Origin: Spirochaetes bacterium ADurb.Bin218
GTDB lineage: Bacteria; Spirochaetota; UBA4802; UBA5550
Length of the DNA: 57,502 bases
Assembly: GCA_002069965.1 (NCBI GenBank)
Contig: MWCI01000016.1
Coordinates: 1-57,502 of the forward strand
Direction: 5' to 3'
Positions 6,718-28,358 of the stretch are shown in pieces. Numbering within the stretch: the first letter of the stretch is position 1; every line of letters starts with the position of its first letter. Under the pieces are notes generated by a model, which saw only the letters and a list, made by a program, of their open reading frames with translations, was not told the DNA's origin and ran no database searches. The position numbers were made by a program, and so were the translations under genes.

Positions 6718-6719
6718 GA

Positions 6720-6733
6720 AAGAGCATGCTCTT
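6720..6733. promoter_or_regulatory. 14-base perfect palindrome between rpsU and the MoxR operon
   Basis: AAGAGCATGCTCTT is self-complementary over 14 bases and lies in the shared divergent promoter region, next to the terminator-like stem-loop. It could be an operator for either direction. No regulator is identified. Confidence 0.35.
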
Positions 6734-6823
6734 GCAAGGATGAAAATTATCTAAAAAATTTTATGGACATAAGCAAATAGTCAATATTAATGACCATAGG
6801 ATTTTGAATTTGCGAGGTGAAAA

Positions 6824-9441: not shown

Positions 9442-10134
9442 ATGGATGAAAAAAAACTTTCTGCTATGGAAATATACTCCCATGGGAAAAACGATCCACG
9501 TATAAGAAGAGATTATATGGATGAATTACTATCCTCAAATGATGCTGAGGCAATTCATCTTGCAGGAAGATACTGGCCTGAATTTGACTTTCACAGAGGG
9601 CTCAAACGTCTGATGGAACTGTGCGATCTTGAATTTGTCCATAAATCTGGAATTTTCTGGAAACATTTTGATTTTGACAGAGGCCTTGATTTCTTTATAA
9701 AAAATAAATCCCCTGAATATATTTACAGATCTGGTAGATTCTGGTCTGGCTATGACTATGAAAAAGGGCTTGATGCGCTGGGTGAACTTAAAAGTGGCAG
9801 ATACATATATTATGCAGGGAAAGAATGGAGGGTTTTTAATTTTTCAAAGGGCCTTGAATATTTGTTTAAGACAAATGATGCTGAGTTTATATTCTATGCT
9901 GGTGCTCACTGGAAGATTTTTGATTTCAAGAGAGGTCTGCAATATCTCTTTAAATCACGAAACTGCGAATTCATCTTTAAGGCAGGAGCTATGTGGAAAG
10001 AATTTGATTATGAGGCAGGATTAAAAATTCTGGAATCTGAAATCTCTGCAGGAAAAGAATGGAGAGCTAAACTTTTTGAAAACAAAAAATGGAAAGAAAA
10101 TCTAAAAATCATCTGGGATAAGATGTGGGAGTAG
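9442..10134 (+). CDS. Protein of six 28-residue tandem repeats, third gene of the MoxR-VWA unit
   Basis: The 230 residues consist of a 32-residue N-terminal segment, six tandem units of exactly 28 residues (33-200) and a Trp/Lys-rich tail. In every unit an AG or SG pair, a Trp four residues later, an aromatic/Asp stretch (FDF, YDY, FNF) and an RGL/KGL/AGL triplet recur; Trp stands at 45, 73, 101, 129, 157 and 185. A seventh, shifted AGKEW occurs at 203-207. Predicted short helices with a Trp-aromatic core suggest a solenoid-like binding scaffold. I do not recognise the repeat as a named family. The ATG directly abuts the VWA gene, with AAAGGTG as binding site, so it belongs to that operon. 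Confidence 0.85.
   Translation: MDEKKLSAMEIYSHGKNDPRIRRDYMDELLSSNDAEAIHLAGRYWPEFDFHRGLKRLMELCDLEFVHKSGIFWKHFDFDRGLDFFIKNKSPEYIYRSGRFWSGYDYEKGLDALGELKSGRYIYYAGKEWRVFNFSKGLEYLFKTNDAEFIFYAGAHWKIFDFKRGLQYLFKSRNCEFIFKAGAMWKEFDYEAGLKILESEISAGKEWRAKLFENKKWKENLKIIWDKMWE
9538..10041 (+). repeat. Six in-frame 84-base coding repeats
   Basis: Six units of 84 bases encode the 28-residue repeats. Protein spacing is invariant, while the DNA copies have diverged, which indicates old duplications held by selection on the protein rather than a recent expansion. Confidence 0.85.
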
Positions 10135-12631: not shown

Positions 12632-13693
12632 CTACAAGCGTTTTGGAATTGCAAAGAAGAAATTGACATATTCTCCAACAACAGAATCAACCCATATTTT
12701 ACCATTATGTTTTTCCACTATCTTCTTGCATATATAAAGTCCAAGGCCTGAGCCTTTTATGCCCTCTGTGCCTTTTTGCTTTAATCTTCCAAATTTACTA
12801 AAGAGCTTTGTTTCAATATCCTCTTTTGAAATTCCTACCCCTTCGTTGTAAATTGAAAACACAACATCATTTCCTTGGTTATATAATCTAACTTTTATCT
12901 CTGTGCCTTCTTTACCGTATTTGATAGCATTATTCACCAGATTGGTAACAACAATTTGAAGTAGATTTGGATCCCCATTGACTACTGTCTCCCCTTCAAA
13001 TGTCTTATTTATTGGCATCTTTTTAAGATTTGAGGCATACTCTGGAATTTCTGTCACAGAGTTTACAATATCCTTTAAGTCGATCTCCTGTTTAAAGGAT
13101 TCCAGATCATCCAACTCCATCTTTGACAGATCTATATAGCTTCTTATTATATCCTCAAGATACTGACAGTTTCGAATTATTGTCTCAAGTATTTCCTTTT
13201 GCTTTGGTTCAAGGTTACCAAAATATCCCTTTGCAAGTGTCTGAGCTGTGGTGTGTACCACTGCCACAGGGCTTTTTAACTCATGAGAAACTATTGCCAT
13301 GAGGTCAAGCATTGTCGTGTCACTATCCTCTCTTGACTTCATTGCATTGTGAACAACATCTCGAAATTCATCAGGGGTAAAAGGCTTTGGTATATAGTCA
13401 AAGGCTCCCATTTTGAGAGCTTCCCTTGCTGTCTCTGCCGTGGCATAACCGGTAAAAATTACCACAGTTAAATCAAGCTTTTTCTCTTTTATTGTTCGCA
13501 AAACATCCATCCCGCTCATTCCTGGCATCATTAAATCTGTAATTACAAGATCGTATTTTTTATTTGCAATCTTTGATAGTCCCTCTTCTCCAGAATAAGC
13601 TGTGTCAATTTCATAATCCTCATTTTTTAAAATCCTGAGGCAACTCTTAAGGACAATGTCTTCGTCATCGATGATTAAAATATTTTTACTCAT
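12632..13693 (-). CDS. Receiver domain-histidine kinase fusion
   Basis: A soluble 353-residue protein with an N-terminal receiver (DLVITDLMMPGMSG, phosphorylatable Asp; conserved KPF near residue 104), a HisKA dimerisation helix with VSHELKSPVAVV and an HATPase with NNAIKYG and GSGLGLYICKK. There is no membrane segment, so the input is probably phosphorylation of its own receiver. I place the start at the ATG at 13693, preceded by GAAGGA, rather than at an upstream TTG. It is the last gene of the hydrogenase unit, 103 bases after a lone receiver gene; a long inverted repeat lies between them. The kinase core resembles that of the GAF kinase at 31062 (both have SHELKSP and a GYFG motif). Confidence 0.9.
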   Translation of the reverse strand: MSKNILIIDDEDIVLKSCLRILKNEDYEIDTAYSGEEGLSKIANKKYDLVITDLMMPGMSGMDVLRTIKEKKLDLTVVIFTGYATAETAREALKMGAFDYIPKPFTPDEFRDVVHNAMKSREDSDTTMLDLMAIVSHELKSPVAVVHTTAQTLAKGYFGNLEPKQKEILETIIRNCQYLEDIIRSYIDLSKMELDDLESFKQEIDLKDIVNSVTEIPEYASNLKKMPINKTFEGETVVNGDPNLLQIVVTNLVNNAIKYGKEGTEIKVRLYNQGNDVVFSIYNEGVGISKEDIETKLFSKFGRLKQKGTEGIKGSGLGLYICKKIVEKHNGKIWVDSVVGEYVNFFFAIPKRL

Positions 13694-13738
13694 TTTTTTA
13701 TCCTTCAAACCGGTTATTAATTCTCACATCTAAAAGAT

Positions 13739-13796: not shown

Positions 13797-14198
13797 TTAT
13801 ATGCACCTGTTGATCTTCTCTATAAGCTCATCAATATCAATGGGCTTTGTAAGAAAATCGTTAACTCCTGGTAAAAAACTCTGTTCAGAATTTAGGGAAA
13901 ATCTTGAATTTGTCACCTGGTTTATAGCTGTAAGCATTATAATAGGGACATCTTTAACTTCTTTAAATTTTGAATTTTCCCTTTTATTTCTTATCTGATA
14001 CACTGCCTCAAAACCAGCAGTGTCGTTTTCCATCATTACGTCCAGTATAAGCAGATCTGGTTTTTCACTCAAAAGCTTTTTTAATCCCTCTGCTGCACTA
14101 TAGGCCTCAACAACCTCAAAATTATTCATCTTCAAAGCCTGAGATAAAGTTGCAACAAGATCCTTATCATCATCAACAAGAAGTATTTTCTTTGCCAT
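13797..14198 (-). CDS. Single-domain response regulator
   Basis: A 133-residue stand-alone receiver: ILLVDDDKDLV acidic pocket, Asp in LLILDVMM, Thr in IIMLTAIN and the Lys of FLTKPID. About 20 additional residues between strand 3 and the Thr switch (RNKRENSKFKEVKD, then SRFSLNSEQSFLPG) make it longer than usual; similar insertions occur in receivers fused to or next to hydrogenase operons. It lacks an output domain and probably passes phosphate to or from the receiver-kinase encoded next. It lies 11 bases after the hydrogenase small-subunit gene with a strong GGGGGG-type binding site. Confidence 0.88.
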   Translation of the reverse strand: MAKKILLVDDDKDLVATLSQALKMNNFEVVEAYSAAEGLKKLLSEKPDLLILDVMMENDTAGFEAVYQIRNKRENSKFKEVKDVPIIMLTAINQVTNSRFSLNSEQSFLPGVNDFLTKPIDIDELIEKINRCI

Positions 14199-14209: not shown

Positions 14210-14740
14210 TTAATCCTTGAGTAATTCATAAATAGAATTTCGGTTTTCCCAGGCCTGATTTCTTTCATATACATCTATAGGGAATTCCATCTGCTTGAGC
14301 TCTGTTGCTGCTACTTTCTTATCCACAAGTCCAAGGGCAAGGGCAACAGCATATATTATAGCCTCAGGCCGTGGAGGGCACCCTGGAATAAAATAATTTA
14401 CAGGGACAACTCCAGATGCACCTCCTGTGACGTTATATGAGTCAAACCAGCATCCACCTCCTGTTGCGCATGAACCTACTCCAAAAACAAGCTTTGGCTC
14501 TGGTAAAGCATCATAGGCTTTTTTAACCAACGGGAGTGTTGGCCTTGTTACTGCCCCTGAAAGCAACATAACATCTGCATGCCTGGGAGAGGCTACAAGC
14601 TTCATCCCAAACCTCTCAACATCATAATACGGGGTAAGGACGTTGAGAATCTCTATATCACAGCCATTGCAGGCTCCTGTGTTGCAGTGGTAAATCCACA
14701 ATGACTTTCCAAACAGTTTCTTTGAAAGATTTGCCAGCAT
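14210..14740 (-). CDS. Group 4 [NiFe] hydrogenase small subunit (HycG/EchC/NuoB-like)
   Basis: The 176-residue protein carries the single proximal [4Fe-4S] cluster of group 4 hydrogenases. The four ligands are visible: C24 and C27 (ACNGCDIE), C91 (GVGSCATGGG) and C121 (PGCPPRPEA). It lacks the twin-arginine signal and extra clusters of the small subunits of other hydrogenase groups. It passes electrons between the polyferredoxin and the Ni-Fe site of the large subunit on the cytoplasmic face of the membrane. It starts 2 bases after the ferredoxin stop, with GGAGAA as binding site. Confidence 0.92.
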   Translation of the reverse strand: MLANLSKKLFGKSLWIYHCNTGACNGCDIEILNVLTPYYDVERFGMKLVASPRHADVMLLSGAVTRPTLPLVKKAYDALPEPKLVFGVGSCATGGGCWFDSYNVTGGASGVVPVNYFIPGCPPRPEAIIYAVALALGLVDKKVAATELKQMEFPIDVYERNQAWENRNSIYELLKD

Positions 14741-14742
14741 GC

Positions 14743-15288
14743 CTATTCTCCTATCTTTGATGGTCTTTTATAATTTTTTGTTTTCGCAAGCATCTCAGGG
14801 TCAAACCTATCAGTTGTTTTTCTGATAAAGGCTCGTGCCTCGATATTATCATATCTATAACCCTGCAGATCCATCCTATCTATCATGTTTTTGTTTTCCA
14901 TGTCATAGCATCTTCCACATCTCTGACATGTGAGCATAAAAAGCTCCATTGTCTCATTAAGATCAGCTCTATCATCTGTTGCCAGTTCATATCTATCTGT
15001 CATTGTTATGGCCTTCTCAGGGCATACATCTGCGCACCTCCCACAATAAGTGCATCTTGAGCCATCATAAACCATAAGGCGTATTTCCTGGCATATATCT
15101 CTCACAAGTATTGTCCTTGCAGGGCAATGATTTGCACATCCTCCACAACCAATGCACTTTTCATGATCCCAGTAAGGTGCACCTCTAAAGTCTTTTGGTG
15201 CAGGTCTTGGCTCAAAGGGATACTTCAAAGTAACAACACCTGGTTTTGAAACCATAATCACCTGTTTTATTTTACTTAAAAGCCACAT
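14743..15288 (-). CDS. Hydrogenase polyferredoxin subunit (HycF/EchF/NuoI-like)
   Basis: A ferredoxin-like subunit with two complete [4Fe-4S] motifs, CIGCGGCANHCP and CTYCGRCADVCP, as in NuoI and HycF. A third partial set, CQRCGRC, lies near residue 125 and has no fourth Cys nearby. It connects the small subunit with the electron-input module. The ATG at 15300 lies directly at the preceding stop and its own sequence contains GGAGG; that GGAGG is correctly spaced for the next in-frame ATG at 15288, which I take as the start (181 residues). Confidence 0.9.
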   Translation of the reverse strand: MWLLSKIKQVIMVSKPGVVTLKYPFEPRPAPKDFRGAPYWDHEKCIGCGGCANHCPARTILVRDICQEIRLMVYDGSRCTYCGRCADVCPEKAITMTDRYELATDDRADLNETMELFMLTCQRCGRCYDMENKNMIDRMDLQGYRYDNIEARAFIRKTTDRFDPEMLAKTKNYKRPSKIGE

Positions 15289-15300
15289 ATAAACCTCCAT

Positions 15301-16200
15301 TTATATCCCATATACTGAGAGACCTACTGCACCCAGAGAAAGGATTATGAGCACAGAATAATACTTAACAGCCTGATCTATTCTAAGCCTCGGGTTGGTT
15401 GCACCAACAAGAGCTATAACCACATAGACAAGAGCAATTAGCACAAGCTGCACCGCAATGTTGACGATATATATCCCTGTATTAAAGAATGGGACAAATA
15501 CCATAACAAAGAGGGCTGCATAAAACATCTGCTTTAGCATCATAGCATATTTAAAGAGAGCATAATTTGGACCACTATACTCAATAAAAGGTCCCTCCAA
15601 TATCTCCTGCTCTGCCTCCGCTATATCAAAGGGCTGCTTGCCAACAAAGGCTTGCAAAGCCATGAGATAGAGAACAAGCATTAACACCACAGCCCAGGAA
15701 TATCCTGTATTCATTACGCTAAATATTGTTGAGTCAATAGCAAGGCTCTTTACCTTAACTGCGCCAACAAAGAAGGTCATTGCCAGAACAGGCTCAACCA
15801 TAATCATTGTGACCATTTCCCTGCTTGCACCCATCATGGCGTATGTATTTCTGCTGGAAAGAGCTCCAAGCAAAATAGAGACTCCTCCCATTGTAAGCAG
15901 ATATATAACAGTTATTACATCAGCATAATTGGTCAAAAAATTTGATTTATACCCAAAGGGAATAAAGCAAATTACAGAAACGATAGCTGCAAAGGAAAAC
16001 AGTGGAGCAATTTTAAAAGCCCAATTGTCCACAACAAGATTCTCTTTGCCAAGGAGCTTAATCAAATCATAATATGGCTGAACAATTGGTGGCCCCTGCC
16101 TTGACTGAACCTTTGCTGTTAGCTTTCGCACTATACCTTCAAAAAGTGGTGCAAAAGCAAGGAAAACAATTATATTGACAAGTATATAGATCATATCCAT
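15301..16200 (-). CDS. Hydrogenase membrane subunit (HycD/EchB/NuoH-like)
   Basis: A 299-residue membrane protein with about eight hydrophobic helices, corresponding to NuoH of complex I. Conserved loops are KVQSRQGPPIVQPYYDLIKLLGKEN (first loop) and QPFDIAEAEQEILEGP in the middle, plus SRNTYAMMGASREM. This subunit anchors the hydrogenase and forms the start of the proton (or Na) channel at the interface with the antiporter-like subunit. It lies between the large-subunit and ferredoxin genes with gaps of 12 and 0 bases. Confidence 0.92.
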   Translation of the reverse strand: MDMIYILVNIIVFLAFAPLFEGIVRKLTAKVQSRQGPPIVQPYYDLIKLLGKENLVVDNWAFKIAPLFSFAAIVSVICFIPFGYKSNFLTNYADVITVIYLLTMGGVSILLGALSSRNTYAMMGASREMVTMIMVEPVLAMTFFVGAVKVKSLAIDSTIFSVMNTGYSWAVVLMLVLYLMALQAFVGKQPFDIAEAEQEILEGPFIEYSGPNYALFKYAMMLKQMFYAALFVMVFVPFFNTGIYIVNIAVQLVLIALVYVVIALVGATNPRLRIDQAVKYYSVLIILSLGAVGLSVYGI

Positions 16201-16212
16201 AGTTTACCTTCC

Positions 16213-17883
16213 TTACCTGTTGCCTCTTGATATAAATTCTATCTCAGACTTAGAGAGAACTCTCTTTTGTCCTGATCTTATATTAACAACCTCAACCCTG
16301 TCTGTGCAGGAAAAGCATGGGTCAAGACTACCCACAATTATTGGAAAATCAGCAAACTGATCCCCAAGCAACATCTCTGGCACAGCCTGAAGATTTGGAT
16401 ACGTCGGGGCACGGACTCTCCATCTGTCGGGTCTGTTTTCCTCCCCTGTTATGACAAAGTGCACAGACTCACCACGTGGAGCCTCCACAACTGATATACC
16501 ATGTTTGAGCGCTGGTATCTCTTCATCAAGGGTAGTCAAAAGCTCTCCCTTTGGCATTTTATCAAGTATCTGACGGATAAGGCTCAAGGATTCATAGATC
16601 TCTAAAACACGGACCACCAGCGTCCCCCATACGTCACAGGTATCAACTACAGGGACGTTAAAATGGAGGTCGCTGTAGGCCGCATAAGGGTGATCTCTTC
16701 TGACATCGATATCAATGCCGCGAGCTCTTGCAACAGGACCAACAAGACTCCATTTAATTGCATCTTCTTTTGAAAGATAGCCGACTCCCTTTGTCCTCTT
16801 GTGCAAAGCTGTATCACCAATAATTGATTTATGTATTATTTTTACTTCCTCTTCTACCTTTGAACAGACTTTCAAAATGTCATCTGCAATCTCAGGAGTT
16901 ATATCCCTCCTGACCCCGCCTACTATGATCATCCCATAGGTCTTTCTGTTTCCTGTAATCCTTTCGCTAAGCCACATTATGTGCTCTCTGACTCGCCAGG
17001 ACTGCATAAAAACTGTATCAAAGCCTATGAGGTGACCTGCAACACCAAGCCACAGAAGATGCGAATGGAGTCTCTCTATTTCAAGGAGAAGGCTTCTTAT
17101 ATATTTTGCTCTCTCAGGGACAGGAATTCCCCCTGCCATTTCAACTGCCTGAGAGTATGCTGTCGCATGAACTGAACCACATATACCGCAAATTCTTTCT
17201 GCAATAAATGGTATTTCATTATAGCTTACCTGAGATTCGCAGAGCTTTTCTATACCTCTGTGAGTCATAAATCCGCGATAATCACAACCCTTTATGGTCT
17301 CACCATCTACATATACTGCAAAATGCTCAGGCTCATGCAAAGCTGTGTGGAATGGCCCCACTGGGATTACAGAACAGCCTTCTGGGCATTCGTCAAGCTG
17401 GTATGCAACATCCTCTGCAGAAGGAGGAACTAAATTATATGGGACTTCCTTCCTAAGGGGATATATGTCAGAGGGCCAATCATCTGCAACCACAAGTCTT
17501 TTTGGTTTTGGATGACCTTCAAATTTTAATCCAAGCAAATCCTGATATTCCCTTTCTGACCAGCCTGCCCCTGGAATATCTGGTGTAATTGAAGGCATCA
17601 CAGGATTACTTGCAGGCACAGCTGCCCTCAAATGAACTATGAAATTATCTCTATCAAAGCCAAAGGCGTGTATCATGCCGATATTGCCATCGCGAGCAAT
17701 ATTATCATAGCCTATGCCAACCAAATACCTTCCACCTTGAGCTACTACCTCTCGTGCTATTTCCCGGACACTATTAGCTTTTATGTCCACAAAAAGCCTT
17801 GTAGGTAGAGGGATCTCATGCCCTGTTATATTCTGGCCAAATTTATCTTTCAACACTTTTAAAAGTTTTTCCAATGAGTTCAT
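16213..17883 (-). CDS. Group 4 [NiFe] hydrogenase large subunit (HycE-like, NuoC/NuoD fusion)
   Basis: The 556-residue catalytic subunit fuses a NuoC-like N-terminal part (about 1-150, with GWSEREYQDLLGLKFEGHP) to the NuoD/HycE-like part. All four Ni ligands are present: C232 and C235 in RICGICGSVH, and C523 and C526 in DPCFSCTDR. The 27 residues after R529 form a C-terminal tail of the kind removed by a maturation endopeptidase once Ni is inserted, and such a protease is encoded two genes upstream. The fusion and the motifs are like formate-hydrogenlyase type hydrogenases (HycE). It should therefore produce or take up H2. A GAGAGG binding site precedes the ATG. Confidence 0.95.
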   Translation of the reverse strand: MNSLEKLLKVLKDKFGQNITGHEIPLPTRLFVDIKANSVREIAREVVAQGGRYLVGIGYDNIARDGNIGMIHAFGFDRDNFIVHLRAAVPASNPVMPSITPDIPGAGWSEREYQDLLGLKFEGHPKPKRLVVADDWPSDIYPLRKEVPYNLVPPSAEDVAYQLDECPEGCSVIPVGPFHTALHEPEHFAVYVDGETIKGCDYRGFMTHRGIEKLCESQVSYNEIPFIAERICGICGSVHATAYSQAVEMAGGIPVPERAKYIRSLLLEIERLHSHLLWLGVAGHLIGFDTVFMQSWRVREHIMWLSERITGNRKTYGMIIVGGVRRDITPEIADDILKVCSKVEEEVKIIHKSIIGDTALHKRTKGVGYLSKEDAIKWSLVGPVARARGIDIDVRRDHPYAAYSDLHFNVPVVDTCDVWGTLVVRVLEIYESLSLIRQILDKMPKGELLTTLDEEIPALKHGISVVEAPRGESVHFVITGEENRPDRWRVRAPTYPNLQAVPEMLLGDQFADFPIIVGSLDPCFSCTDRVEVVNIRSGQKRVLSKSEIEFISRGNR

Positions 17884-17912
17884 GTCTAACCTCTCACCTT
17901 ATTTTAGTTTCA

Positions 17913-19787
17913 TCACTTTTTAACATTCCCCCCTGTCCACCACAGGAAGTCTTTCAATGATGAGAACATACTCTTATCTGGATATCTATTTAGATTATTG
18001 AGTTCTGCATATCCGCATAGCCATGTAGGCACTTCCCTTTCCTTAGAATCGCCAGAGTCTCGCAGCATTTTTGCCAGAGCAAGTGCAATTAGCACTACTA
18101 CAAGAATTACTGCAGGAACTGCTGCAGATGAAACTATGCCTGCAACACCTGGAACGCTAAAGGCTACACCATTCATCGAAGAAAATATATGTTCACTTAA
18201 CTTTGTATTTTCAAAGGCTGCTGTAAGAGTTGATCTGCTTGCATTGTTAAACACTGTGATTATTACATTGTAATATACAAAGGGCAGCAATCCCTGAACT
18301 ATACACAGAAGTGTGAGTATTACCTTTGGAATTAACATCATAGCAGGGACTTCTTTTATATCCTTGCCAATAGTCCATTCTGTTCCAGTTGATGTAAAAC
18401 TCATACCAAAAAATTTAACATAACAGGATAGGGTTACTGCACTTGTAAAAAGTGCTATTATACCAAATATTGCCAGAAACATTACTTCACTTCCAGCAAG
18501 GACTGTTGATGATATAATTGTCCACTTGCTTGCAAATCCGCTAAAAGGTGGAACCCCTGCTATTGAGAGAGAAGCAATTCCTGCAATGACAGCAGATACT
18601 GGCATAAACTTAATAAGCCCGCCAAGTTTATTCAAATCCTTTGTCCCGGTTGTATACAATATACTTCCGCTAACAAGGAAGAGCAGTCCCTTAAACACTG
18701 CATGATTTATAACATGGTATAGAGCTCCTACTATTACAACAAGAGCAAGAAGCTTGAGGTAATCGCTCTCACTGTTTAAAAGCACAAGGGCTGAACCTGA
18801 TGCAAAGATTATATATCCAAGCTGTCCTATGGAGCTATAGGCAAGAAGTCTCTTTGCATCGCTTTGTTTCATTGACTGAACTGTTCCAACAAAAAGTGTT
18901 ACAACTCCAAAGGAAGCAATTACAACACCCCAGAAAAATCCGTCAAAATGAACGTTTTCTCCATGAGGTACCATCCAGAAGAATGTGCGCATTATGCCAT
19001 AGATACCAGTTTTAAGCATAACTCCAGAAAGCAGTGCACTTATTGGAGATGGAGCTATGGAGTGAGCATCTGGCAACCATAGTTGTCCAAAGGGGAACAT
19101 ACCAGCCTTAAATCCAAAGCCTACAAGGATCATTCCATAGACGACATATATAAAAGCCGGGGAGCTATTGCCAAGCTTTAATGTCACAGAGTGTAGAGAA
19201 TCCCCCATAGAGGAACCGCTTACAAAGAATGTTGCACCTACTATCAGAGCCCATGCAATTTCCATTAAAACAAGATATTTGTTTGCACCATAGACAACCC
19301 CCTTTTCCCTGAACTCAAACTTGATCAAGAAATAAGAGGCAATTGTCATAAGCTGCCAGCTGATGGTAAATCCTGTTGTAAGATCATCAACTGTTAAAAG
19401 AGCTATCATGCCAAGTATAAATATTGGCAGATTAAGGTAATATCCTCTGAGGCTATAATCATGATAATGATCCATATACTCAATTGAGTAAAAGGAACTC
19501 ATGACAGCCATGAAAGAAACAATTGCGATAAAAAAAGCGGAAAAGCTGTCCACAAGAAAATAAATACCAATAGGCCCCATGGTAATTAATACAGAATCTT
19601 GTGGAACAGCTTTAAAAATCACCGCAAAACTTATATGAAGGAGAAATATTGCAGCAACTGTTACCATTAAAAAGTTTATCCAGCCAGCAAGTTTTCTTCT
19701 TGAACCTGCAACAACAGAGGATATAACTGCTGAGGCAAGAAGTATAGCCATGGCGGTAAACAAGTTTCCGTAAATGTTCACGTTCAT
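17913..19787 (-). CDS. Antiporter-like membrane subunit of the hydrogenase (HyfB/HycC/NuoL-like)
   Basis: A 624-residue membrane protein with about 14-16 hydrophobic segments, of the proton-translocating NuoL/M/N/MrpA family. Recognisable blocks are MGPIGIYFLVDSFSAFF near residue 90, FGFKAGMFPFGQLWLPDAH near 225 (conserved Lys), YSSIGQLGYI near 315 and HVINHAVFKGLLFL near 355. It should couple H2 chemistry to ion movement. Only one antiporter-like subunit is present in the cluster. Its start overlaps the stop of the maturation-protease gene by four bases (ATGA). Confidence 0.92.
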   Translation of the reverse strand: MNVNIYGNLFTAMAILLASAVISSVVAGSRRKLAGWINFLMVTVAAIFLLHISFAVIFKAVPQDSVLITMGPIGIYFLVDSFSAFFIAIVSFMAVMSSFYSIEYMDHYHDYSLRGYYLNLPIFILGMIALLTVDDLTTGFTISWQLMTIASYFLIKFEFREKGVVYGANKYLVLMEIAWALIVGATFFVSGSSMGDSLHSVTLKLGNSSPAFIYVVYGMILVGFGFKAGMFPFGQLWLPDAHSIAPSPISALLSGVMLKTGIYGIMRTFFWMVPHGENVHFDGFFWGVVIASFGVVTLFVGTVQSMKQSDAKRLLAYSSIGQLGYIIFASGSALVLLNSESDYLKLLALVVIVGALYHVINHAVFKGLLFLVSGSILYTTGTKDLNKLGGLIKFMPVSAVIAGIASLSIAGVPPFSGFASKWTIISSTVLAGSEVMFLAIFGIIALFTSAVTLSCYVKFFGMSFTSTGTEWTIGKDIKEVPAMMLIPKVILTLLCIVQGLLPFVYYNVIITVFNNASRSTLTAAFENTKLSEHIFSSMNGVAFSVPGVAGIVSSAAVPAVILVVVLIALALAKMLRDSGDSKEREVPTWLCGYAELNNLNRYPDKSMFSSLKDFLWWTGGNVKK

Positions 19788-20284
19788 TTAGAAACTCCTT
19801 TATTACAATTTAAAGCATCTATTATCAAATTTATCAACATATCAGCGCTTTCCCTTACAGGAGTTGATAGCTCAGCGCCAAAATCAACATTATCAACAAC
19901 AACTCCGAGCAAATAGGTTTCCTTATTGTGCTCTCTAAAAATACTGCCAGACATCTTAAGAGCTAATTTGTGAGTTGAGAGAGTTCCTCCAAGCTCATCA
20001 AATTCATCTTCAAGTTTTCCAAATACTACTGAACCTACTTCCGCATCTGTTTTCACCGCATCTATAATCAAGATGTTTTTAAAATCAGATTCCGCAATTT
20101 TGAAAACATAGGCTTCAATAATATCCTCAACATTAAAGATAGCGCTTTTGTTATCTGCTATTTTTTTAACAGACTCAATAATGTAGAGACCAACTGCATC
20201 ATCACTTTTGAGGTAATTCCCCATACCAACAAGGCAGCAGTTATCTCTTACCACTTCTCTTATGTCAGACAGAATTGAGCTCAT
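19784..20284 (-). CDS. Hydrogenase maturation endopeptidase (HycI/HyaD family)
   Basis: A 166-residue protein of the Ni-dependent hydrogenase maturation protease family, which trims the C-terminal tail of the large subunit after metal insertion. The N-terminal GMGNYLKSDDAVGLYI is the family signature (GxGNxLxxDDxxG), with ILIIDAVKTDAEVGSV and LSTHKLALKM providing the other Ni-sensing positions (Asp and His). The gene overlaps both neighbours (1 and 4 bases) and its substrate is very likely the large subunit encoded at 16213-17883. Confidence 0.9.
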   Translation of the reverse strand: MSSILSDIREVVRDNCCLVGMGNYLKSDDAVGLYIIESVKKIADNKSAIFNVEDIIEAYVFKIAESDFKNILIIDAVKTDAEVGSVVFGKLEDEFDELGGTLSTHKLALKMSGSIFREHNKETYLLGVVVDNVDFGAELSTPVRESADMLINLIIDALNCNKGVSK

Positions 20285-21126
20285 CAGATTTCTTCACCCA
20301 AAGTTTTAATCTGTTTATAAGTATAAACAGGACCATCAGTGCACACAAGGGTTCTACCTATTGCACAATGCTGACACTTGCCTATCCCGCATTTCATGTG
20401 TCGCTCAAGAGTTGAAATTATACAGTCATCCTTAAGTCCTCTCTTCATGAGGTCATTTATAACTGAATTAAACATAACAGGAGGACCACAGACAAAAGCT
20501 ACAGTATTTTCCACAGGAATATTAGCCTTGTCTATGAGGCTGTTGACAAAGCCAGTATGTCCTGTCCATCCATCTGTTGGCTGATCCACTGTTACATAAC
20601 ACTCAAACCCAGGGATCTTAAGCCATTCCTCAATGTTATACTGATACATTAAATCCTTTGGAGTTCTTGCTCCAAGTAAAACAATAATCCTTCCAAACTC
20701 ATTTCTATGCTGCAGAGCATGGACAATGGAGGAGCGCAAAGGTATAAGTCCAATACCACCTGCAACATATATTATGTTTTTACCCTTTATCTCTTCAAAG
20801 GGGAATCCATTGCCAAAAGGTCCTCTTATACCAACTTTGTCTCCAACTTGAAGAGCATGCAAAGCGTCAGTTACCTTACCCACTCTCCTTACAGAGAGAT
20901 GAAATCTGTCATTTTCGGGGCTTGGCGGAAGTGATATTGCAGATTCACCAGCACCAAAGACTGTAAGCATAACAAACTGACCTGATTTTATCTTAAAGTT
21001 TTTTTCCACTTCTGGGTTATCAAACTTAAGATAAAAAGTCTTTACATCCTGAATCTCATCCTTAATTTCTTCTATGGTTGCTATTTCAGGAACAGTTACT
21101 ATTTTGCCATCTACTATATTATTCAT
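20284..21126 (-). CDS. FAD/NAD(P)H-binding electron-transfer subunit (HydG/AsrB-like)
   Basis: A ferredoxin-reductase type protein like the gamma subunit of archaeal sulfhydrogenase (HydG) and AsrB. An FAD-binding barrel (about residues 1-100; FVMLTVFGAGESAISL) is followed by an NAD(P)-binding fold (IIYVAGGIGLIPLRSS, VAFVCGPPVM) and a C-terminal [2Fe-2S] motif CGIGKCQHCAIG...VC. It would exchange electrons between NAD(P)H and the hydrogenase module. GTG, ATG and ATG starts lie at 21135, 21132 and 21126; AGGTGA is best spaced for the last, which I use. It directly follows the HydB-like gene, its usual partner. Confidence 0.88.
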   Translation of the reverse strand: MNNIVDGKIVTVPEIATIEEIKDEIQDVKTFYLKFDNPEVEKNFKIKSGQFVMLTVFGAGESAISLPPSPENDRFHLSVRRVGKVTDALHALQVGDKVGIRGPFGNGFPFEEIKGKNIIYVAGGIGLIPLRSSIVHALQHRNEFGRIIVLLGARTPKDLMYQYNIEEWLKIPGFECYVTVDQPTDGWTGHTGFVNSLIDKANIPVENTVAFVCGPPVMFNSVINDLMKRGLKDDCIISTLERHMKCGIGKCQHCAIGRTLVCTDGPVYTYKQIKTLGEEI

Positions 21127-21135
21127 AGCCATCAC

Positions 21136-22191
21136 CTACTCTGTTATTTCTCTTCTGATGTATGTGACAACATTTGGCAGACCTATATCACCAGGGCAAA
21201 CCCACTGACATCTGCCGCAACCCACACATCCTGGCCTCAAATATTTCTTTGATTGAGAATAAGAAAGCTTGCAGAAAAATCTTTTGTTTCTTCTATCCTC
21301 AACAGGATGGCGTGGATTGTGATCACCTGCCATCTTTGTATATCCCTCAAAGGAACAGGAATCCCATGTCCTTAACCTATCTGTTGTGCCATCAAATCTA
21401 TTGTGATCCTCAACATTAAAGCAGGAGCATGTAGGGCATACAAAGGTGCAGGCTCCACATTCAAAGCACTGCTTGCCTATATACTCCCATACATCTTCCT
21501 TTATAAAACCAGTAGTAATTCTATTCATTACTCTGGAAATCCATGCCTTATTATCTGTAGCAATGCTTTCAAAAAGCGATATGGACTTATCATTTGCTTT
21601 CTTCTTCATCTCAGCATAAGATGGATCTGCAGATTTCAGCCCGAGCCTCTGGACTAATTCCTTACCCTTATCACTTCCAGCCTCCACAAGATAATAATCT
21701 CCAAGGAGTGTAAGGTTTAGATCATATCCCTCATCTGCAAAGGGACCACTATCTGTGCACACACAAAAGCATTGCTTAAAAGGAGCTATACAGTTTTGAG
21801 AAACAATAAACATCCTCTTTCTGTGCTCCCTGTAAATCTCATCAACAAACTCCTGCCCCAAAAAGAATCTATCAAGGACAATAAGCCCTGTGAGATCACA
21901 TGGTCTTATGCCAAAAATAGCCTTACTTCTGTTATCAAGAATTGCCTCAATCTCAGCTTTTTTTGCACTGCGATCGTATTTATATTTCATTATCCTCTCA
22001 ATCTGAGGAAAAACAACATGCTTTGGAGGAATTGCAGGGATCTCTGCAGAAAGACTGATCTCAGAGGAATCATTCACTCTGTCAAAGAAAACCTGCCCTG
22101 TCCCTTTATCTACAACAGGTCCAAAGAGCTCATAGTTTTTTGCAAGCTCCTCGGCTATTTTCATAACATTTTCTTTTTCTATAAGATACAT
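21136..22191 (-). CDS. Iron-sulfur electron-transfer subunit (HydB/AsrA-like)
   Basis: The 351-residue protein matches the beta subunit of sulfhydrogenase (HydB) and anaerobic sulfite reductase A. The N-terminal half has FGIRPCDLTGLIVLDRFF and a CIAPFKQCFCVCTD cysteine group; the C-terminal half has two [4Fe-4S] motifs, CFECGACTFVCPTC and CVGCGRCQWVCP. It is expected to bridge the flavin subunit and the rest of the complex. It starts 3 bases after the molybdopterin-subunit stop. Identification is by motif order and gene pairing with the HydG-like gene. Confidence 0.88.
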   Translation of the reverse strand: MYLIEKENVMKIAEELAKNYELFGPVVDKGTGQVFFDRVNDSSEISLSAEIPAIPPKHVVFPQIERIMKYKYDRSAKKAEIEAILDNRSKAIFGIRPCDLTGLIVLDRFFLGQEFVDEIYREHRKRMFIVSQNCIAPFKQCFCVCTDSGPFADEGYDLNLTLLGDYYLVEAGSDKGKELVQRLGLKSADPSYAEMKKKANDKSISLFESIATDNKAWISRVMNRITTGFIKEDVWEYIGKQCFECGACTFVCPTCSCFNVEDHNRFDGTTDRLRTWDSCSFEGYTKMAGDHNPRHPVEDRRNKRFFCKLSYSQSKKYLRPGCVGCGRCQWVCPGDIGLPNVVTYIRREITE

Positions 22192-22194
22192 AAG

Positions 22195-24204
22195 CTATAC
22201 CCTCTCTATCCTAACTGGAATAGTTGCATCTAACCCCATGTCACTTTTATCACTATGACCAAGGAGAAAATCTGTAATCATCTCTTTGATAAAATAAGGG
22301 ACGTAAGCTGTTCCAGGCTTAACATCTTCTGAAATCTTAACGCTTACATTCATGGAACCCTTATCTGAAGAAATCTTCACAGTCCAGTGCTCTCTCACCT
22401 GAAGCTTCTTTGCATCTTCGCTGTTTATCTCAATGAATCCCTTAGGATAGACAAGAAGAGTTGCATTGTATTCTCTCTTAGGAATATAGCTCTTCTTCAT
22501 GATATTATTTTGATGCCAGAAATACTCCCCTCTTCCAGGTATAAGTAAAAATGGGAAGGCTTCACTTACATTAACAGCAGGGAATGTTCCAGAAACCTTT
22601 GCAAAGGAGAGAGCTGTTCCTGACTTGAGCAAAAAGCTTTTGCATCCATTGGGATATTCACTGTTGCATGGCCACTGAATTCCTGTGGAGTTTATTAATT
22701 TATCATAAGAAAGTCCTGAGTATGATGGAGTGAGAGAAGCTATTTCTTTGAAAACATCCTCAGAGGAATTATAGCTCCATTTAACCCCAGACTTTGCAGC
22801 AATCATCGAAAAGAGTTCCCTTACACTAAGTACACCATTAAAGGCTTGAATTCTCTTTTGAGAGATCTGAACTCTTCTCTCTGTGTTTGTATATGTCCCA
22901 TCATCCTCAATCAGTGCAGCAATAGGGAATACAACATCTGCATGATTTACAAAGGGATTGTCATAGGAGCCAAAATATACTACAAAATCAAGGTTTGCAA
23001 TTTCCTTTTCATATTTAACAATTCCCTCGTCATGTTCTGCTACAAAGAGTACTTTGAGATCCTTATTTTTATTTTCAAGTAACTGGTAAACATCATTGCC
23101 AACTTCTGCTGGCAATTGCACCTGCCATGCCTTTTCAAATTTAGATCTCACTGCACCATCACTATAGCTTTGAAATCCTGTAAGCAAATCAGGAGCAACA
23201 CCCATATCGTATCCCCCCTGAAGATTTGCAAGGCCAGTGATAGAATTAAGACCGCAATTTTCCTTTCCAACTTTCCCTGCAATTAAAAATAGATTAGCAA
23301 TATAGCTCACAGTATCTTCGTCAGCTCCAGAAATGCCAGTAGACCAGAAAGCCATAGCAGATTCACTTCCACAGAGTTCCTTAGCCACAGAGTCAATATC
23401 ATCCAGAGAAATTCCTGTAGAACCAATTGCCTCTGCCATGTTAATTGCTGCAAGAGAAGATGCAAAGTCATTGAAACCTGCCATAGAAGATGCAGAATTT
23501 TTATCCATGTAGCCCTTTTCAATTGCAACTTTTGCGATGAGTGCTATTGTGAGCTTCAATGTCCCAGGTCTGCATTGCAGATGCAAATTAGAAAGTTTCG
23601 CCATCTGAGTTTTTCTACTTCCCAAAGTTACAACCTTTGTTCCTGCCATCTGCGCCTTGTGGATCTCACTGCCTATTATGGGATTTATCCGTGTGAGATC
23701 AGAGCCTATGACCATTATAAATTTTGTCTTTTCTATTTGTTCAAGGGAGCCAGTCATCGCCGGAAATCCGGTTACCTTAGATAAAACATTAAGGCTTCCC
23801 CTATGCCCTGACTCTGAATCAAGTGTGATATTATTTGTTTTAAAAACAGAACGTGCCAGTTTCATGAAGAGATAGTTATTCTCATTGGACCACCTTGGCG
23901 CTCCTAAAAAGCCAATAGCCTTTGCTGAGCTGCCCATGTATGGTGAGAGCTTTTCCATCATGAAGTTAACTGCCTCTTCATAAGTCACATTCTTAAAAGA
24001 GCCATCAACTTTAATCATGGGAGAGGATATCCTCTGATCTGTCATTAACCACTCATGGATATGCCACCCCCTGACACAAAGCCGACCCTTACTAACCGGA
24101 TGATTGCGAGATGAGTATACTCCCGTAATCTTGCCATCAGAAATCCTGAGGTAGTTTCCACATCCGGTTCCACAGAAATTACATACTCCAGACTTATAAT
24201 CCAT
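22195..24204 (-). CDS. Molybdopterin oxidoreductase-family subunit (formate dehydrogenase/NuoG-like) lacking the Mo-ligating Cys/Sec
   Basis: The 669-residue protein has the standard order of the formate dehydrogenase/NuoG superfamily: N-terminal [4Fe-4S] motif with C8, C11, C15 and C43 (CNFCGTGC...GRLC), molybdopterin domains, and a C-terminal dinucleotide-binding barrel (from about 555: FPFLLIPGRGEYFWHQNN). The segment where formate dehydrogenases carry Cys or selenocysteine reads NITLDSESGHRGSLNV (residues 125-140), with no Cys and no in-frame TGA. Direct formate oxidation is therefore doubtful; an electron-relay or altered catalytic role is possible. It is first in the hydrogenase unit, with AGGGG 6 bases before the ATG, after a strong promoter and a structured leader. 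Confidence 0.85.
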   Translation of the reverse strand: MDYKSGVCNFCGTGCGNYLRISDGKITGVYSSRNHPVSKGRLCVRGWHIHEWLMTDQRISSPMIKVDGSFKNVTYEEAVNFMMEKLSPYMGSSAKAIGFLGAPRWSNENNYLFMKLARSVFKTNNITLDSESGHRGSLNVLSKVTGFPAMTGSLEQIEKTKFIMVIGSDLTRINPIIGSEIHKAQMAGTKVVTLGSRKTQMAKLSNLHLQCRPGTLKLTIALIAKVAIEKGYMDKNSASSMAGFNDFASSLAAINMAEAIGSTGISLDDIDSVAKELCGSESAMAFWSTGISGADEDTVSYIANLFLIAGKVGKENCGLNSITGLANLQGGYDMGVAPDLLTGFQSYSDGAVRSKFEKAWQVQLPAEVGNDVYQLLENKNKDLKVLFVAEHDEGIVKYEKEIANLDFVVYFGSYDNPFVNHADVVFPIAALIEDDGTYTNTERRVQISQKRIQAFNGVLSVRELFSMIAAKSGVKWSYNSSEDVFKEIASLTPSYSGLSYDKLINSTGIQWPCNSEYPNGCKSFLLKSGTALSFAKVSGTFPAVNVSEAFPFLLIPGRGEYFWHQNNIMKKSYIPKREYNATLLVYPKGFIEINSEDAKKLQVREHWTVKISSDKGSMNVSVKISEDVKPGTAYVPYFIKEMITDFLLGHSDKSDMGLDATIPVRIERV

Positions 24205-24233
24205 ATCTAACCCCTAAGCCAGTATTGTTTTCC

Positions 24234-24281
24234 ATGGAGTCACGGTTTATAAAAAGTGCTCGGCACCCAAAACCGCTCCAT
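24234..24281 (-). ncRNA. Structured leader hairpin of the hydrogenase operon
   Basis: On the minus strand three nested helices can form: ATGGAG with CTCCAT, CGGTTT with AAACCG, and GTGC with GCAC around a CGA loop, separated by small internal loops. There is no T run after it, so it is not a simple terminator. It lies between the promoter at 24311-24339 and the first gene. I do not recognise it as a named riboswitch class; a cofactor-sensing or mRNA-stabilising element is possible. Confidence 0.5.
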
Positions 24282-24310
24282 CCACCTAAGTAACAGCAAT
24301 GTCTGATGGG

Positions 24311-24339
24311 AATATAGGCTAAATGAAGGTCAATGTAAA
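24311..24339 (-). promoter_or_regulatory. Promoter of the hydrogenase operon
   Basis: On the minus strand TTTACA (24339-24334), a 17-base spacer and TATATT (24316-24311). Each box matches five of six consensus bases. It would give a leader of about 100 bases before the molybdopterin-subunit gene. Confidence 0.68.
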
Positions 24340-24365
24340 TAGGGGAAAAAACTTTTTACACTTAG

Positions 24366-24377
24366 GGGGAATTCCCC
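24366..24377. promoter_or_regulatory. Palindrome GGGGAATTCCCC, candidate activator site
   Basis: This 12-base perfect palindrome is centred about 67 bases upstream of the likely start of the hydrogenase transcript, a usual position for activator binding. It also lies just after the stop of the gene for a LuxR-type fusion regulator. Confidence 0.42.
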
Positions 24378-24394
24378 TATAAAATTGTGGTATC

Positions 24395-27280
24395 TCAGGA
24401 GGTTTTGCTAAGGATCCACTGCACGGCAAATTGCACCAATTCAGAGGAAGAGTCGATATTAAGCCTTGTTTTGATCTTTTCACGGTAATTTTCAACAGTT
24501 TTTACACTGATATGCAGTTTATCTGCAATATGTTTATTCCCAAGCCCATGACCAATGAGCTGAAAAACCTCAAACTCTCTATCTGTAAGGGAATCCACCA
24601 GAGCTGTTTTTTCATCTTTAGAGGGGGATGAGAGCTTATCAAGAAGTCTCTCTTTGAGATTATCGCTCATATACTGACGACCATCCAGCACTGTTCTGAT
24701 GGCATTTACAATTACAGCAGGAGATTCATCTTTCATAACATACCCACGGGCTCCAGCTCTAATTGATCTCTCTGCATAAATAGACTCCTCATAGATTGAA
24801 AGCACAAGTATTGGCAAAGTGGGATAGCGCTCTTTACATGCCTTTATAAGTTCAAGACCACCTGTGCCACTTAAGGATATATCCGTAACCATAATCTCTG
24901 GTCTTAAGCGACCAATTAACTTTAAAGCCTCCTCGGCATTTCCTGTTTCTCCAACAACCTCAAGATCATTTTCTATCTCAAGGATTTGCCTAAGTCCCTG
25001 ACGCACCACAGGATGGGAATCCACAAGCAAAACTCTATATTTTGCCTTGCCTCTTATTTTTTTCTTTGAAGGCCACTTCGCAACATCTTCCTGTAGGCTT
25101 TCACCTGTTAACTTAAAACGGCAAGAAACAATGGCTCCACCTGCTGGATTGCTGCGTATTTCACTGGATGCACCCATAAGCCATGATCTGTATTTGAGCA
25201 TACTCTGAAAGAGAGAATTTTTTTCTTTATCTATGGAATCAAAACTCAGCCCATCATCAATGATTTCAATAACTCCAAGGTTGCCATCTTTTGATGATGC
25301 TATAATTATATTCTTTGCCCTGTTAACTTCGATCGAATTATAGATAGATTCTCGGATGATATAATAAAGATTGGATAGCTCAAGTTTGCCTGATAGATTG
25401 AGATTTTTATCCCATCGTATAAGAATATTTACATTATGATTTTCCCCAATCTCATCTTTAAGATTCTCTACAGCAGTCAAAAGTCCACCATCACCAATTT
25501 CAACAGGGCAGAGCTCCTTTGCTATTTCCCGAGTTTTATTGACAGCCATATTTACCATATTGATAATTTCATCAACATCAGAAATCACATCAGGCATGGC
25601 ATCTCCAATTTTTAATTTAAGGAGTTCCCCTCTGAATGTAATACCTGCGAGATGCTGAGCTAACCTATCATGGAGATCCTGCCCAATCTTTAATCTCTCA
25701 GCTGCATTAGTCTCCATCACAGCCTTTTCAAGACGCTTTCGCTCTGTAATATCAATACCAACAAAGAATATAAAATCAACCTGACCATTAACCTTTAAGA
25801 CAGGCTTTCCATGCCATTCCACCATAATCTCTTCGCCATTTCGTGTGAGCAAAGTCGTCTCTACAACTACAACCTTTTTTTTATTAACTATTTTCAAAAA
25901 ATCCTGACGCTGCAATTGACGATCACTTTCTGAAAAGAGAAGATCTATATAGTTTTTACCAACAACCTCACTTAAAGAATATCCAAGGCTAAAAAGCATT
26001 GCCCTGTTCATTGAGAGAATATTTCCCGATGAGTTTATAGCTACATAAAAGGCAGGATTTATCTCATCTAAGTTTTTTAAAAAATCCTTGCCTTTTCTAA
26101 TTTTTTCTATGGCACGCTGTTCCTGAGTGACATCTCTTTCAATAATGGAAGCACCTATTATATCACCAAGGGAATCCCGTATAGGAACAATCTTGAGAGT
26201 CAAATACAGAACCTCCCCATTTTTCGACAAACCCTCTGTCTCATAGTGATCTATCTTTTCTCCATGCCTTATGCGCTCCAGCAGATAAGGGAAAAAATCA
26301 TGTTGATGAGGTGGGATTAACTTTGAATAGAGGGAGCCTATAATCTCATCGGCTCGATATCCAAAAATTCTTTCTGCGCTGTGATTCCAGCTTACGATCT
26401 CTCCACTCAATGTTAAACCTACAACAGCATCATCGGAATCTTCTATAAGCAGAGAAATAAGCCTCTTTAGCTCTGTGCTATCGTGTTTTTCTCTAACATC
26501 CCTAAAAAGACTTAATATTGCATAGTCATTGTTATATTCAACAAGCCTGCTTGATACCTCAACAGGGACAATCTCTCCTTCTGCATTTTTTATTGTTGTC
26601 TCTATAATCTTTCGATCTATAGAAGAAAAGCTCATAATGTTAGAGGCTATATCTGTTATTCGCTGATAATTAAATAGAGTTAAAACAGATCGACCAATAA
26701 GATCCTCATCCTTCAGACCAAAGTATTCACAAGCTCTCTCATTTACCTCAAGAATCATCCCTTCAAGATCGTGTATAATTACAATGTCGTTTATGCTGTT
26801 AAAAAGAGACTGGTAATTTATCTCCTTTTCTCTAAGTCTCTCACTTTTTTCTGACAGAAGTTCAGCAAGCTTTTTGTTAGCCTCTTTAAGGGAATCCTCT
26901 GCCTTTTTGATTCTAATCATTGCTTTAAGCTCAGCAACAAGCTCAACCTCATCAATAGGTTTTGTAACAAAGGCATCAGCTCCAGATTCAAGAGCAGAGG
27001 CACGCAACTTTGAGGTTGTATTTGCAGCAGTGATAAGGATTACAGGAATAAATGAAGTTTCAGGATTATTTTTAATACGAACACAAAAATCATTGCCATT
27101 CATCTCTGGCATATAATAATCAACAAGCACAACATCAGGTAAATTATTATTGATCTCCTCAAGAGCCTTGATTGGAGAATCAAAAGTAACAACCTCTGCC
27201 TCAGGGAAAAAATCTCCAAGCAAAGCCTCCATGGCAATAAGGTTATCAGCATTATCATCAATAACAAAAATTCTAAGCAT
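24395..27280 (-). CDS. Receiver-PAS-PAS-PAS-histidine kinase-receiver-LuxR fusion regulator
   Basis: A 961-residue soluble protein that holds a whole signalling chain: receiver (1-125; Asp in VVLVDYYMP), a coiled linker, three PAS domains (about 155-270, 285-400, 410-530), a NarX-type HisKA_3 with QDLHDRLAQHL near 550, an ATPase domain (about 640-740), a second receiver (about 765-885; MVTDISLSGTGG) and a NarL/LuxR DNA-binding domain (LTDREFEVFQLIGHG, KTVENYREKIKTRL). The ATPase G-boxes are unusual: after DDGLSFD the expected GxGL stretch reads NSLFQSMLKYRSWLMGA, so ATP binding may be altered. It ends just upstream of the hydrogenase promoter region and is a candidate direct regulator. It overlaps the preceding gene by 8 bases. 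Confidence 0.88.
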   Translation of the reverse strand: MLRIFVIDDNADNLIAMEALLGDFFPEAEVVTFDSPIKALEEINNNLPDVVLVDYYMPEMNGNDFCVRIKNNPETSFIPVILITAANTTSKLRASALESGADAFVTKPIDEVELVAELKAMIRIKKAEDSLKEANKKLAELLSEKSERLREKEINYQSLFNSINDIVIIHDLEGMILEVNERACEYFGLKDEDLIGRSVLTLFNYQRITDIASNIMSFSSIDRKIIETTIKNAEGEIVPVEVSSRLVEYNNDYAILSLFRDVREKHDSTELKRLISLLIEDSDDAVVGLTLSGEIVSWNHSAERIFGYRADEIIGSLYSKLIPPHQHDFFPYLLERIRHGEKIDHYETEGLSKNGEVLYLTLKIVPIRDSLGDIIGASIIERDVTQEQRAIEKIRKGKDFLKNLDEINPAFYVAINSSGNILSMNRAMLFSLGYSLSEVVGKNYIDLLFSESDRQLQRQDFLKIVNKKKVVVVETTLLTRNGEEIMVEWHGKPVLKVNGQVDFIFFVGIDITERKRLEKAVMETNAAERLKIGQDLHDRLAQHLAGITFRGELLKLKIGDAMPDVISDVDEIINMVNMAVNKTREIAKELCPVEIGDGGLLTAVENLKDEIGENHNVNILIRWDKNLNLSGKLELSNLYYIIRESIYNSIEVNRAKNIIIASSKDGNLGVIEIIDDGLSFDSIDKEKNSLFQSMLKYRSWLMGASSEIRSNPAGGAIVSCRFKLTGESLQEDVAKWPSKKKIRGKAKYRVLLVDSHPVVRQGLRQILEIENDLEVVGETGNAEEALKLIGRLRPEIMVTDISLSGTGGLELIKACKERYPTLPILVLSIYEESIYAERSIRAGARGYVMKDESPAVIVNAIRTVLDGRQYMSDNLKERLLDKLSSPSKDEKTALVDSLTDREFEVFQLIGHGLGNKHIADKLHISVKTVENYREKIKTRLNIDSSSELVQFAVQWILSKTS

Positions 27281-28358
27281 TCTTTGTGACCCAGTATTTT
27301 AGTCTTGCAACAAAGTCATCTATATTAAAAGGCTTGTGTATAATATCATTAAATCCAGCTTTTGCAATATCCTCCTGTTCTGCAATATGAGCTGTAAAAG
27401 CAATAACTGCAACTTTTTCTCCCCCAAAAAAATTTCTTATGCTGCGCACAAGGGAAAGACCACTTATATCTGGCAGAGAGATATCAAGCAAAACAATATC
27501 TGGCTTTATCTGATTGATAAGATCTATTCCATCATGCCCGGTGCTGGCAAAGAAAACTTTACCTCTTCCATTAAACTCATGGTCAATGATCGCCTTTATT
27601 GGAATATGATTATCAAGATCATCATCAATTACCACAACTAAAAAATCTCTAAGCTCAATCTCCTGTGAATCCCCCTTAGAAAGAGGCAAGGAATTCACCT
27701 CCTTATCAAGAGAAGGGAACTCCAAACAACAGCAGAAAAAACCAGAGCTGCTTTTTATAAAAAAGCTACCACCACTTACCTTCACCATCTGATCCAGTAG
27801 ATAAAGACCCAAAGCTGCATTTTCAGAAAAATTATGACTCTTAAGATTAAAAGCAGAAAAACCATCAAGGCAATCATCATCAAATTCATGAGAATTTGCA
27901 GCATAAAAAACTGCGCCCTGAGCATTTAATTTAATTTTTATATTTATTTTATTATATCCAAAAATTTTATACAAGTCTATCAAATCATCAAAAATAGTTT
28001 TTAAAATAGTAGCATCAAAATTAAATACACCAGGGCTCTGTGACAAAAACTCAAAGGTAAGATCAAAAGGATTATCATCTACAAGGTGAAGAAAGAAATC
28101 ATTAAGGTTAAGAGATGAAAAGTATGGCTTAATGACATTATGCTTCAATTTACTTATAAGAGAAATCTGTTCAATGATCTTAAGTATTTTCTTGCTGTTT
28201 CTGTTTATTATCTCAAAATATTCTTTCTCTTTACTGGAAAATCTATTATCCTTATCTCTCCCCAAAATTCCAGAAAGAGCAATAATTGGATTAAGACTAT
28301 TTTTAATCTCATGGCTTATAATTGCCGTAATCTTAGCATTATCTGGATCTGTAAACAC
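27273..28358 (-). CDS. Histidine kinase-receiver hybrid without sensor domain
   Basis: A 361-residue protein with a HisKA region carrying the phospho-acceptor in IISHEIKNSLNPIIALSG near residue 16, an ATPase domain that is poorly conserved (only NAALGLYLLDQMVKVSGG recalls the G2 box) and a C-terminal receiver (FLVVVIDDD, IVLLDISLPDISG, HKPF). With no sensor it must get its signal from partners. The start is GTG at 28358, 6 bases after the preceding stop. It lies between a helical protein of unknown function and the large fusion regulator in one operon. Confidence 0.82.
   Translation of the reverse strand: MFTDPDNAKITAIISHEIKNSLNPIIALSGILGRDKDNRFSSKEKEYFEIINRNSKKILKIIEQISLISKLKHNVIKPYFSSLNLNDFFLHLVDDNPFDLTFEFLSQSPGVFNFDATILKTIFDDLIDLYKIFGYNKINIKIKLNAQGAVFYAANSHEFDDDCLDGFSAFNLKSHNFSENAALGLYLLDQMVKVSGGSFFIKSSSGFFCCCLEFPSLDKEVNSLPLSKGDSQEIELRDFLVVVIDDDLDNHIPIKAIIDHEFNGRGKVFFASTGHDGIDLINQIKPDIVLLDISLPDISGLSLVRSIRNFFGGEKVAVIAFTAHIAEQEDIAKAGFNDIIHKPFNIDDFVARLKYWVTKNA

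Follow-up and report, generated by a model that had tools for sequence, protein, structure and literature searches.

The question raised by this locus is whether a group 4 [NiFe] hydrogenase, NAD(P)H subunits of the sulfhydrogenase type and a formate dehydrogenase (FDH)-like molybdopterin subunit, encoded side by side, act as one enzyme, and which electron donor such an enzyme would use. We analyzed a window of 57,502 nt (positions 1–57,502 of contig MWCI01000016.1 of Spirochaetes bacterium ADurb.Bin218, a 3.03-Mb assembly), in which the first-pass annotation had described nine tightly ordered genes for a HycE-like hydrogenase with one antiporter-like subunit, HydB, HydG and an FDH-like protein. 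This description was borne out in coordinates, strand and families: all nine ORFs lie at 14210–24204 on the minus strand with intergenic gaps of −4 to +29 bases, and the family calls were backed by Pfam/NCBIfam and by matches to solved structures. The order of transcription, from 24204 down to 14210, is the molybdopterin subunit (Mop), HydB, HydG, a HycI-type protease, a HyfB-like antiporter subunit, HycE, HycD, HycF and HycG. From the gene set, the gene order and the motif states we infer a physical complex, its electron path, its use of NAD(P)H and its coupling to ions; the likely reading is that these genes, with a tenth, encode a single energy-converting NAD(P)H:H2 oxidoreductase bound to the membrane, in which an FdhA has been turned into a structural or relay subunit.

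The tenth gene encodes a stand-alone response-regulator receiver domain (133 aa, 13797–14198, minus strand) and starts 11 bases past HycG, which makes the unit one gene longer than first annotated. The gene keeps its place in the unit across phyla, adjoining HycG in 54 of 60 loci under a strict test, and its product has invariant D9, D11 and K118, with the phosphoacceptor D53 present in 78/85 proteins and replaced by Glu in 7/85. A scan for sigma-54 (FhlA-like) promoters was uninformative, with 45 matches at two or fewer mismatches against 28 expected and none of them in the intergenic region (24205–24394) that precedes the first gene. On either side the unit is bordered by genes for sensor kinases and receiver domains (12632–13708 and 24395–28358), and similar kinase genes stand beside it in several Spirochaetota relatives. 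Elsewhere in the window, an ORF at 9442–10134 consists of repeats of about 30 residues of the type FDFxRGLxYLF.

The combination of group 4 hydrogenase, HydB/HydG and Mop proved to be conserved across phyla, and in these relatives the HydB, HydG and Mop genes were not separated from the hydrogenase. A close HycE orthologue (66–100% identity) was found in 24 of the 39 sampled genomes of the source's order, its own genome counted, and in the loci fetched from this sample the gene order was identical wherever the contig was long enough. A single scan of a species-level genome collection with two HycE peptide patterns returned 65 loci with the unit; since the patterns fit this clade, this number describes conservation inside the clade and not across all group 4 hydrogenases. 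All nine families were present in 56 of these loci, the remainder being mostly cut by contig ends. Three loci were rearranged or divergent: L125 (Zipacnadia) has extra antiporters and no protease was found there, and in L077 and L126 the HycD gene precedes Mop, and the contig yielded no HyfB. The hosts are Spirochaetota, Acidobacteriota/Aminicenantes, purple and chitin-degrading Pseudomonadota (Lamprocystis, Thiodictyon, Rhodocyclus, Chitinibacteraceae) and others. Some taxon labels of metagenome-assembled genomes (MAGs) may be wrong, a problem that does not touch the isolates carrying the unit (Chitiniphilus, Chitinilyticum, Chitinibacter, Deefgea, Lamprocystis and Rhodocyclus). The source HycE is 90% identical to that of the Spirochaetia MAG UBA5763. 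The identical order on independent assemblies ruled out an assembly chimera.

The catalytic core is that of a group 4 enzyme. The large and small subunits are of the HycE/HycG type, not group 3 HydA/HydD. HycE (556 aa, 16213–17883) carries a fused 30-kDa domain, the [NiFe] ligands C232/C235/C523/C526, which are invariant wherever aligned (86–89 relatives), and a C-terminal extension after R529; the equivalents of E. coli E193, R478 and D529 are also invariant where aligned. The HycI-type maturation protease (166 aa, 19784–20284) matches PF01750, TIGR00072 and TIGR00142. Electron transfer subunits are HycF/NuoI-like with 2×[4Fe-4S] and a C-terminal CxxCxxC (185 aa, 14743–15300) and HycG/NuoB-like with the proximal [4Fe-4S] cluster (176 aa, 14210–14740). 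The best match of HycE among solved structures was the HycE of E. coli formate hydrogenlyase (FHL; 432 bits), followed by Pyrococcus MBH (261 bits). In an IQ-TREE phylogeny, which holds few named references and from which group 3b large subunits were dropped for long-branch placement in a first tree, the clade is sister to E. coli HycE/HyfG together with a Spirochaete FHL-type enzyme, L024 (96.3/99), and another HydB/HydG-linked group 4 pair, L139/L145, falls just outside (99.5/100). The likeness to E. coli FHL-1/FHL-2 (Hyc/Hyf, group 4a; PMC9474812) extends to HycD, HycF, HycG, the antiporter-like subunit, the HycI-type protease and an FdhF homologue. Unlike FHL, the unit has HydB and HydG, and within the cluster, to which this search was limited, no ORF corresponds to the four-cluster linker HycB/HyfA; its HycF lacks the second CPxC of the metal site. 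Matches to [FeFe] hydrogenases also occur in the source genome, as do additional [NiFe] hydrogenase matches (contigs C24 and C3) and, on contig C21 (L033), a group 4 hydrogenase-related complex with a HycE-like protein devoid of CxxC motifs and two antiporter subunits.

The FdhF homologue, Mop (pseudo-FdhA, MopB family; 669 aa, 22195–24204), has lost the FDH active site. It scores 414 bits against TIGR01591, under the family cut-off of 666, and retains the [4Fe-4S] cysteines C8/C11/C15/C43, but has G133 at the position of the molybdenum-ligating Sec140 of FdhH and T323 at that of Arg333; HMMER alignment to 9t1s_L and 7bkb_D agrees on this loss. With E. coli FdhH as the alignment reference and some genomes counted twice, once per collection, the Sec140 position among relatives is occupied by Gly in 76 and by Trp in 2 of 78 readable sites, the Arg333 position is Ala, Thr, Pro, Val or Ser and never Arg (0/79), and the four Fe-S cysteines are retained in 79/79. 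The loss reaches into the surrounding pocket: five FDHs share 154 invariant columns, of which 41 are retained in at least 90% of Mop members and 47 in less than 10%; D134, C136, R138, Q301, Q335, Q428 and D478 belong to these 47. As controls, intact Sec FDHs with both motifs occur elsewhere in the source genome (L043) and in the genus (L024, L025), and in the latter two loci the Sec FDH stands beside a separate FHL-type cluster.

These data bear on the reading that the complex is an FHL with an added NAD(P)H branch, in which Mop oxidizes formate. Such an enzyme would suit a large subunit that is sister to that of FHL and a Mop that is most FDH-like by family and by fold, its AF2 model having FdhH as the nearest fold (mean pLDDT 77 from 14 rows, which is only fair, with residues 1–16, 34–53, 431–453 and 557–580, covering the Fe-S region and the new motif described below, unreliable). 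The reading is nevertheless highly improbable, as Cys/Sec and Arg are gone in every Mop along with much of the FDH-invariant pocket, and as the genus has its own FHL-type cluster with a Sec FDH. Formate in the role of the possible third donor that the first-pass annotation had raised was rejected on the ground of the Cys/Sec and Arg loss in all Mop members; judged by these residues, formate is very probably not what powers the enzyme.

Loss of the formate site leaves room for a new catalytic role of Mop, with a Mo/W-bisMGD that has no protein ligand, or with another cofactor, acting on some other substrate. Arsenite oxidase binds its Mo cofactor without a protein ligand. Family-specific conserved residues (W563, H564, N566 and M569 plus an inserted P575/R577/E578/Y579 motif), which suggest that Mop is under selection, and the retained R104/N107/E108 would fit such a role. 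The many lost pocket residues and the variable His141 position (H, Q, L, Y or D) speak against it, as does the faster divergence of Mop, whose identity to the Pseudomonadota and Saccharicenans members is 40–43% compared with 59–80% for HydB, HydG, HycE, HycF and HycG. On balance we regard a catalytic Mop as unlikely.

The module next to Mop is related to Pyrococcus sulfhydrogenase I (SHI). HydG (AsrB-like; 283 aa, GTG start, 20284–21135) matches SHI gamma (9nez_C, 1e-56) with invariant FAD, NAD and [2Fe-2S] motifs, and HydB (AsrA-like; 351 aa, 21136–22191) matches SHI beta (9nez_B, 3e-40), with 16 of its 17 invariant cysteines common to both; the scores of both proteins are below the curated equivalog cut-offs. 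The motif of HydG was considered as an indicator of NAD versus NADP, and the sequence does not settle this choice. Pyrococcus SHI and group 3b enzymes have the HydB-HydG NAD(P)H module in common with the unit but differ in their cytoplasmic group 3 catalytic subunits and in having neither a membrane arm nor Mop. Weak matches (8e-6 and 8e-4) also connect the Fe-S domain of HydB with beta subunits of F420-dependent FDHs, which would fit a contact of the FdhA-FdhB kind between Mop and HydB. In the HydB tree, the protein of the complex is the sister of the HydB of L133, an FdhA-HydB-HydG cluster (96.5/99); the HydG tree did not resolve the branching. The L133 trio (2963–6941 of that locus) retains the FDH Cys and Arg (HCARLCH, LRGQNN), has no hydrogenase genes and is, by its motifs, a candidate NAD(P)H-dependent FDH. 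In Desulfurivibrio dismutans, a 2025 study proposed that HydB/HydG next to FdhA and without hydrogenase subunits supply NAD(P)H electrons for the reduction of CO2 (PMC12142623). Both modules are the same Mop-HydB-HydG trio without hydrogenase genes, and the Cys and Arg that are intact in L133 are lost in the unit. In other Spirochaetota, the neighbour of HydB-HydG is a group 4 hydrogenase in L139 and L145 and an antiporter gene in L140 (a short contig), with no Mop in the fetched stretch.

In other clusters, HydB/HydG pairs are found beside various partners (group 3b, FDH, other group 4 and unidentified ones), as one would expect if the operon encoded two enzymes, a ferredoxin hydrogenase and a HydB-HydG-Mop enzyme passing NAD(P)H electrons, for instance, to sulfur or sulfite. 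The gene order held as one unit across phyla and the lack of a HycB/HyfA-like linker in the cluster argue against this division. So does the HydB type itself: in the sampled phylum it is set apart from all others by score (at least 622 versus at most 221 bits), and every fetched instance lies inside this hydrogenase unit. Moreover, with Mop inactive, a separate FdhA-HydBG enzyme would have no substrate, which favors one complex. Two independent enzymes therefore seem improbable to us, and the case for complex formation comes from gene order and its conservation.

The membrane arm consists of HycD/NuoH (PF00146; 299 aa, 15301–16200), in which most E-channel Glu residues are conserved, and one HyfB/HycC-like antiporter-like subunit (624 aa, 17913–19787), in which the Lys residues of TM7 (Lys227), TM8 and TM12 are present and conserved (K227, K259 and K421 in the source protein). 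In this subunit the TM5 Glu is replaced by Gln (Gln145) in 81 of 82 aligned members, so that the TM5 Glu/TM7 Lys pair of ion-pumping group 4 complexes is incomplete, with Gln145 paired with Lys227. E. coli HycC likewise lacks one member of this pair. TM5 Gln and TM12 Lys set the unit apart from E. coli FHL. The other antiporter-like subunits sampled retain the Glu except those of L125 and L139, both HydB/HydG-linked, which have Gly; loss of the TM5 Glu appears, from these alignments, to track with the HydB/HydG module. The ion coupling suggested in the first-pass annotation is plausible from the presence of a membrane arm and is weakened by the conserved Glu-to-Gln change: because this key residue is Gln in 81/82 members, ion pumping is uncertain, and the change could point to weaker or altered pumping. 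With reserve, we also entertain the possibility of an NAD(P)H hydrogenase that is anchored in the membrane and pumps no ions, which is compatible with a single NAD(P)H:H2 oxidoreductase and not exclusive of it. The Gln, the Gly of L139 and L125 and the Glu kept in the other subunits would fit it; the conserved Lys residues and E-channel Glu would be odd for a pure anchor.

In the single NAD(P)H:H2 oxidoreductase that we prefer, HydG would exchange electrons with NAD(P)H through its FAD and [2Fe-2S], HydB, with several [4Fe-4S] clusters, would hand them onward, and HycF and HycG would relay them to the [NiFe] site of HycE, with HycD and the antiporter-like subunit as the membrane arm. Such a complex probably originated from the union of an FdhA-HydB-HydG module with a hydrogenase that is the sister of the FHL enzyme. 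The FdhA would then have given up formate chemistry but kept its [4Fe-4S] cluster, and would serve as a structural or relay subunit through which HydB is docked on the hydrogenase, with HydB taking the place of the HycB of FHL; the Mop cluster may lie on the electron path or off it, like the N7 cluster of complex I. NADPH-driven H2 release is feasible at low H2, and the reverse at high H2. The complex could vent NAD(P)H electrons as H2 at low H2 and make NAD(P)H at high H2 or with a membrane potential. Inactive FDH- or Mop-type domains kept in redox complexes have precedents in different complexes that are not group 4 hydrogenases: the FdhF domain of StnC in the Stn transhydrogenase is described as catalytically inactive, with Fe-S clusters that are needed for assembly (PMC10482914), the Stn complex did not oxidize formate (PMC7483475), and QrcB is said to contain no redox cofactors (PMC13059093). 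More tentatively, the unit may represent a widespread class of energy-converting NAD(P)H:H2 oxidoreductases that combines a remodelled antiporter devoid of the TM5 Glu with a decayed FDH selected for a new role, either as a cofactor-free docking subunit or with a new active site marked by the WHQNN...PKREYN motif; this whole reading is a less probable one.

A close published counterpart is the cluster of Saganbacteria RX5A, where, in the passages of Matheus Carnevali et al. (2019) that concern it, a group 4 hydrogenase accompanied by CooF, AsrA, AsrB and an unclassified molybdopterin oxidoreductase was called enigmatic, and the molybdopterin protein was assigned to FDH by HMMs but not by phylogeny (PMC6349859). 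Compared by gene content, it shares with the unit the group 4 hydrogenase, the unclassified Mop, asrA and asrB but has Mrp-type antiporters and CooF; L125, with its extra antiporters, is the locus nearest to it in gene content. The active-site loss and the breadth are not described in those passages. Among the titles and abstracts on hydrogenases of Aminicenantes, Saccharicenans, group 4f and Chitinibacter, none describes the ten-gene cluster. Relative to the literature searched, the breadth, the loss of Mop residues and the fixed ten-gene unit are new, and the ingredients were already known.

If the proposal is true, anaerobes such as the source, whose assembly has no RnfC above the cut-off, would be able to connect H2 with NAD(P)H directly at the membrane, in parallel to complex I. 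HMM-based labels of FDH or formate hydrogenlyase would be wrong for the whole clade, and such mislabelling would carry over into metabolic models of, among others, Spirochaetota and Aminicenantes. Some hosts are in culture, so the claim is open to testing now. If confirmed, the complex would join NuoG of complex I as an example, within the complex I superfamily, of an FDH-type subunit that was put to a new use and no longer carries out its original chemistry.
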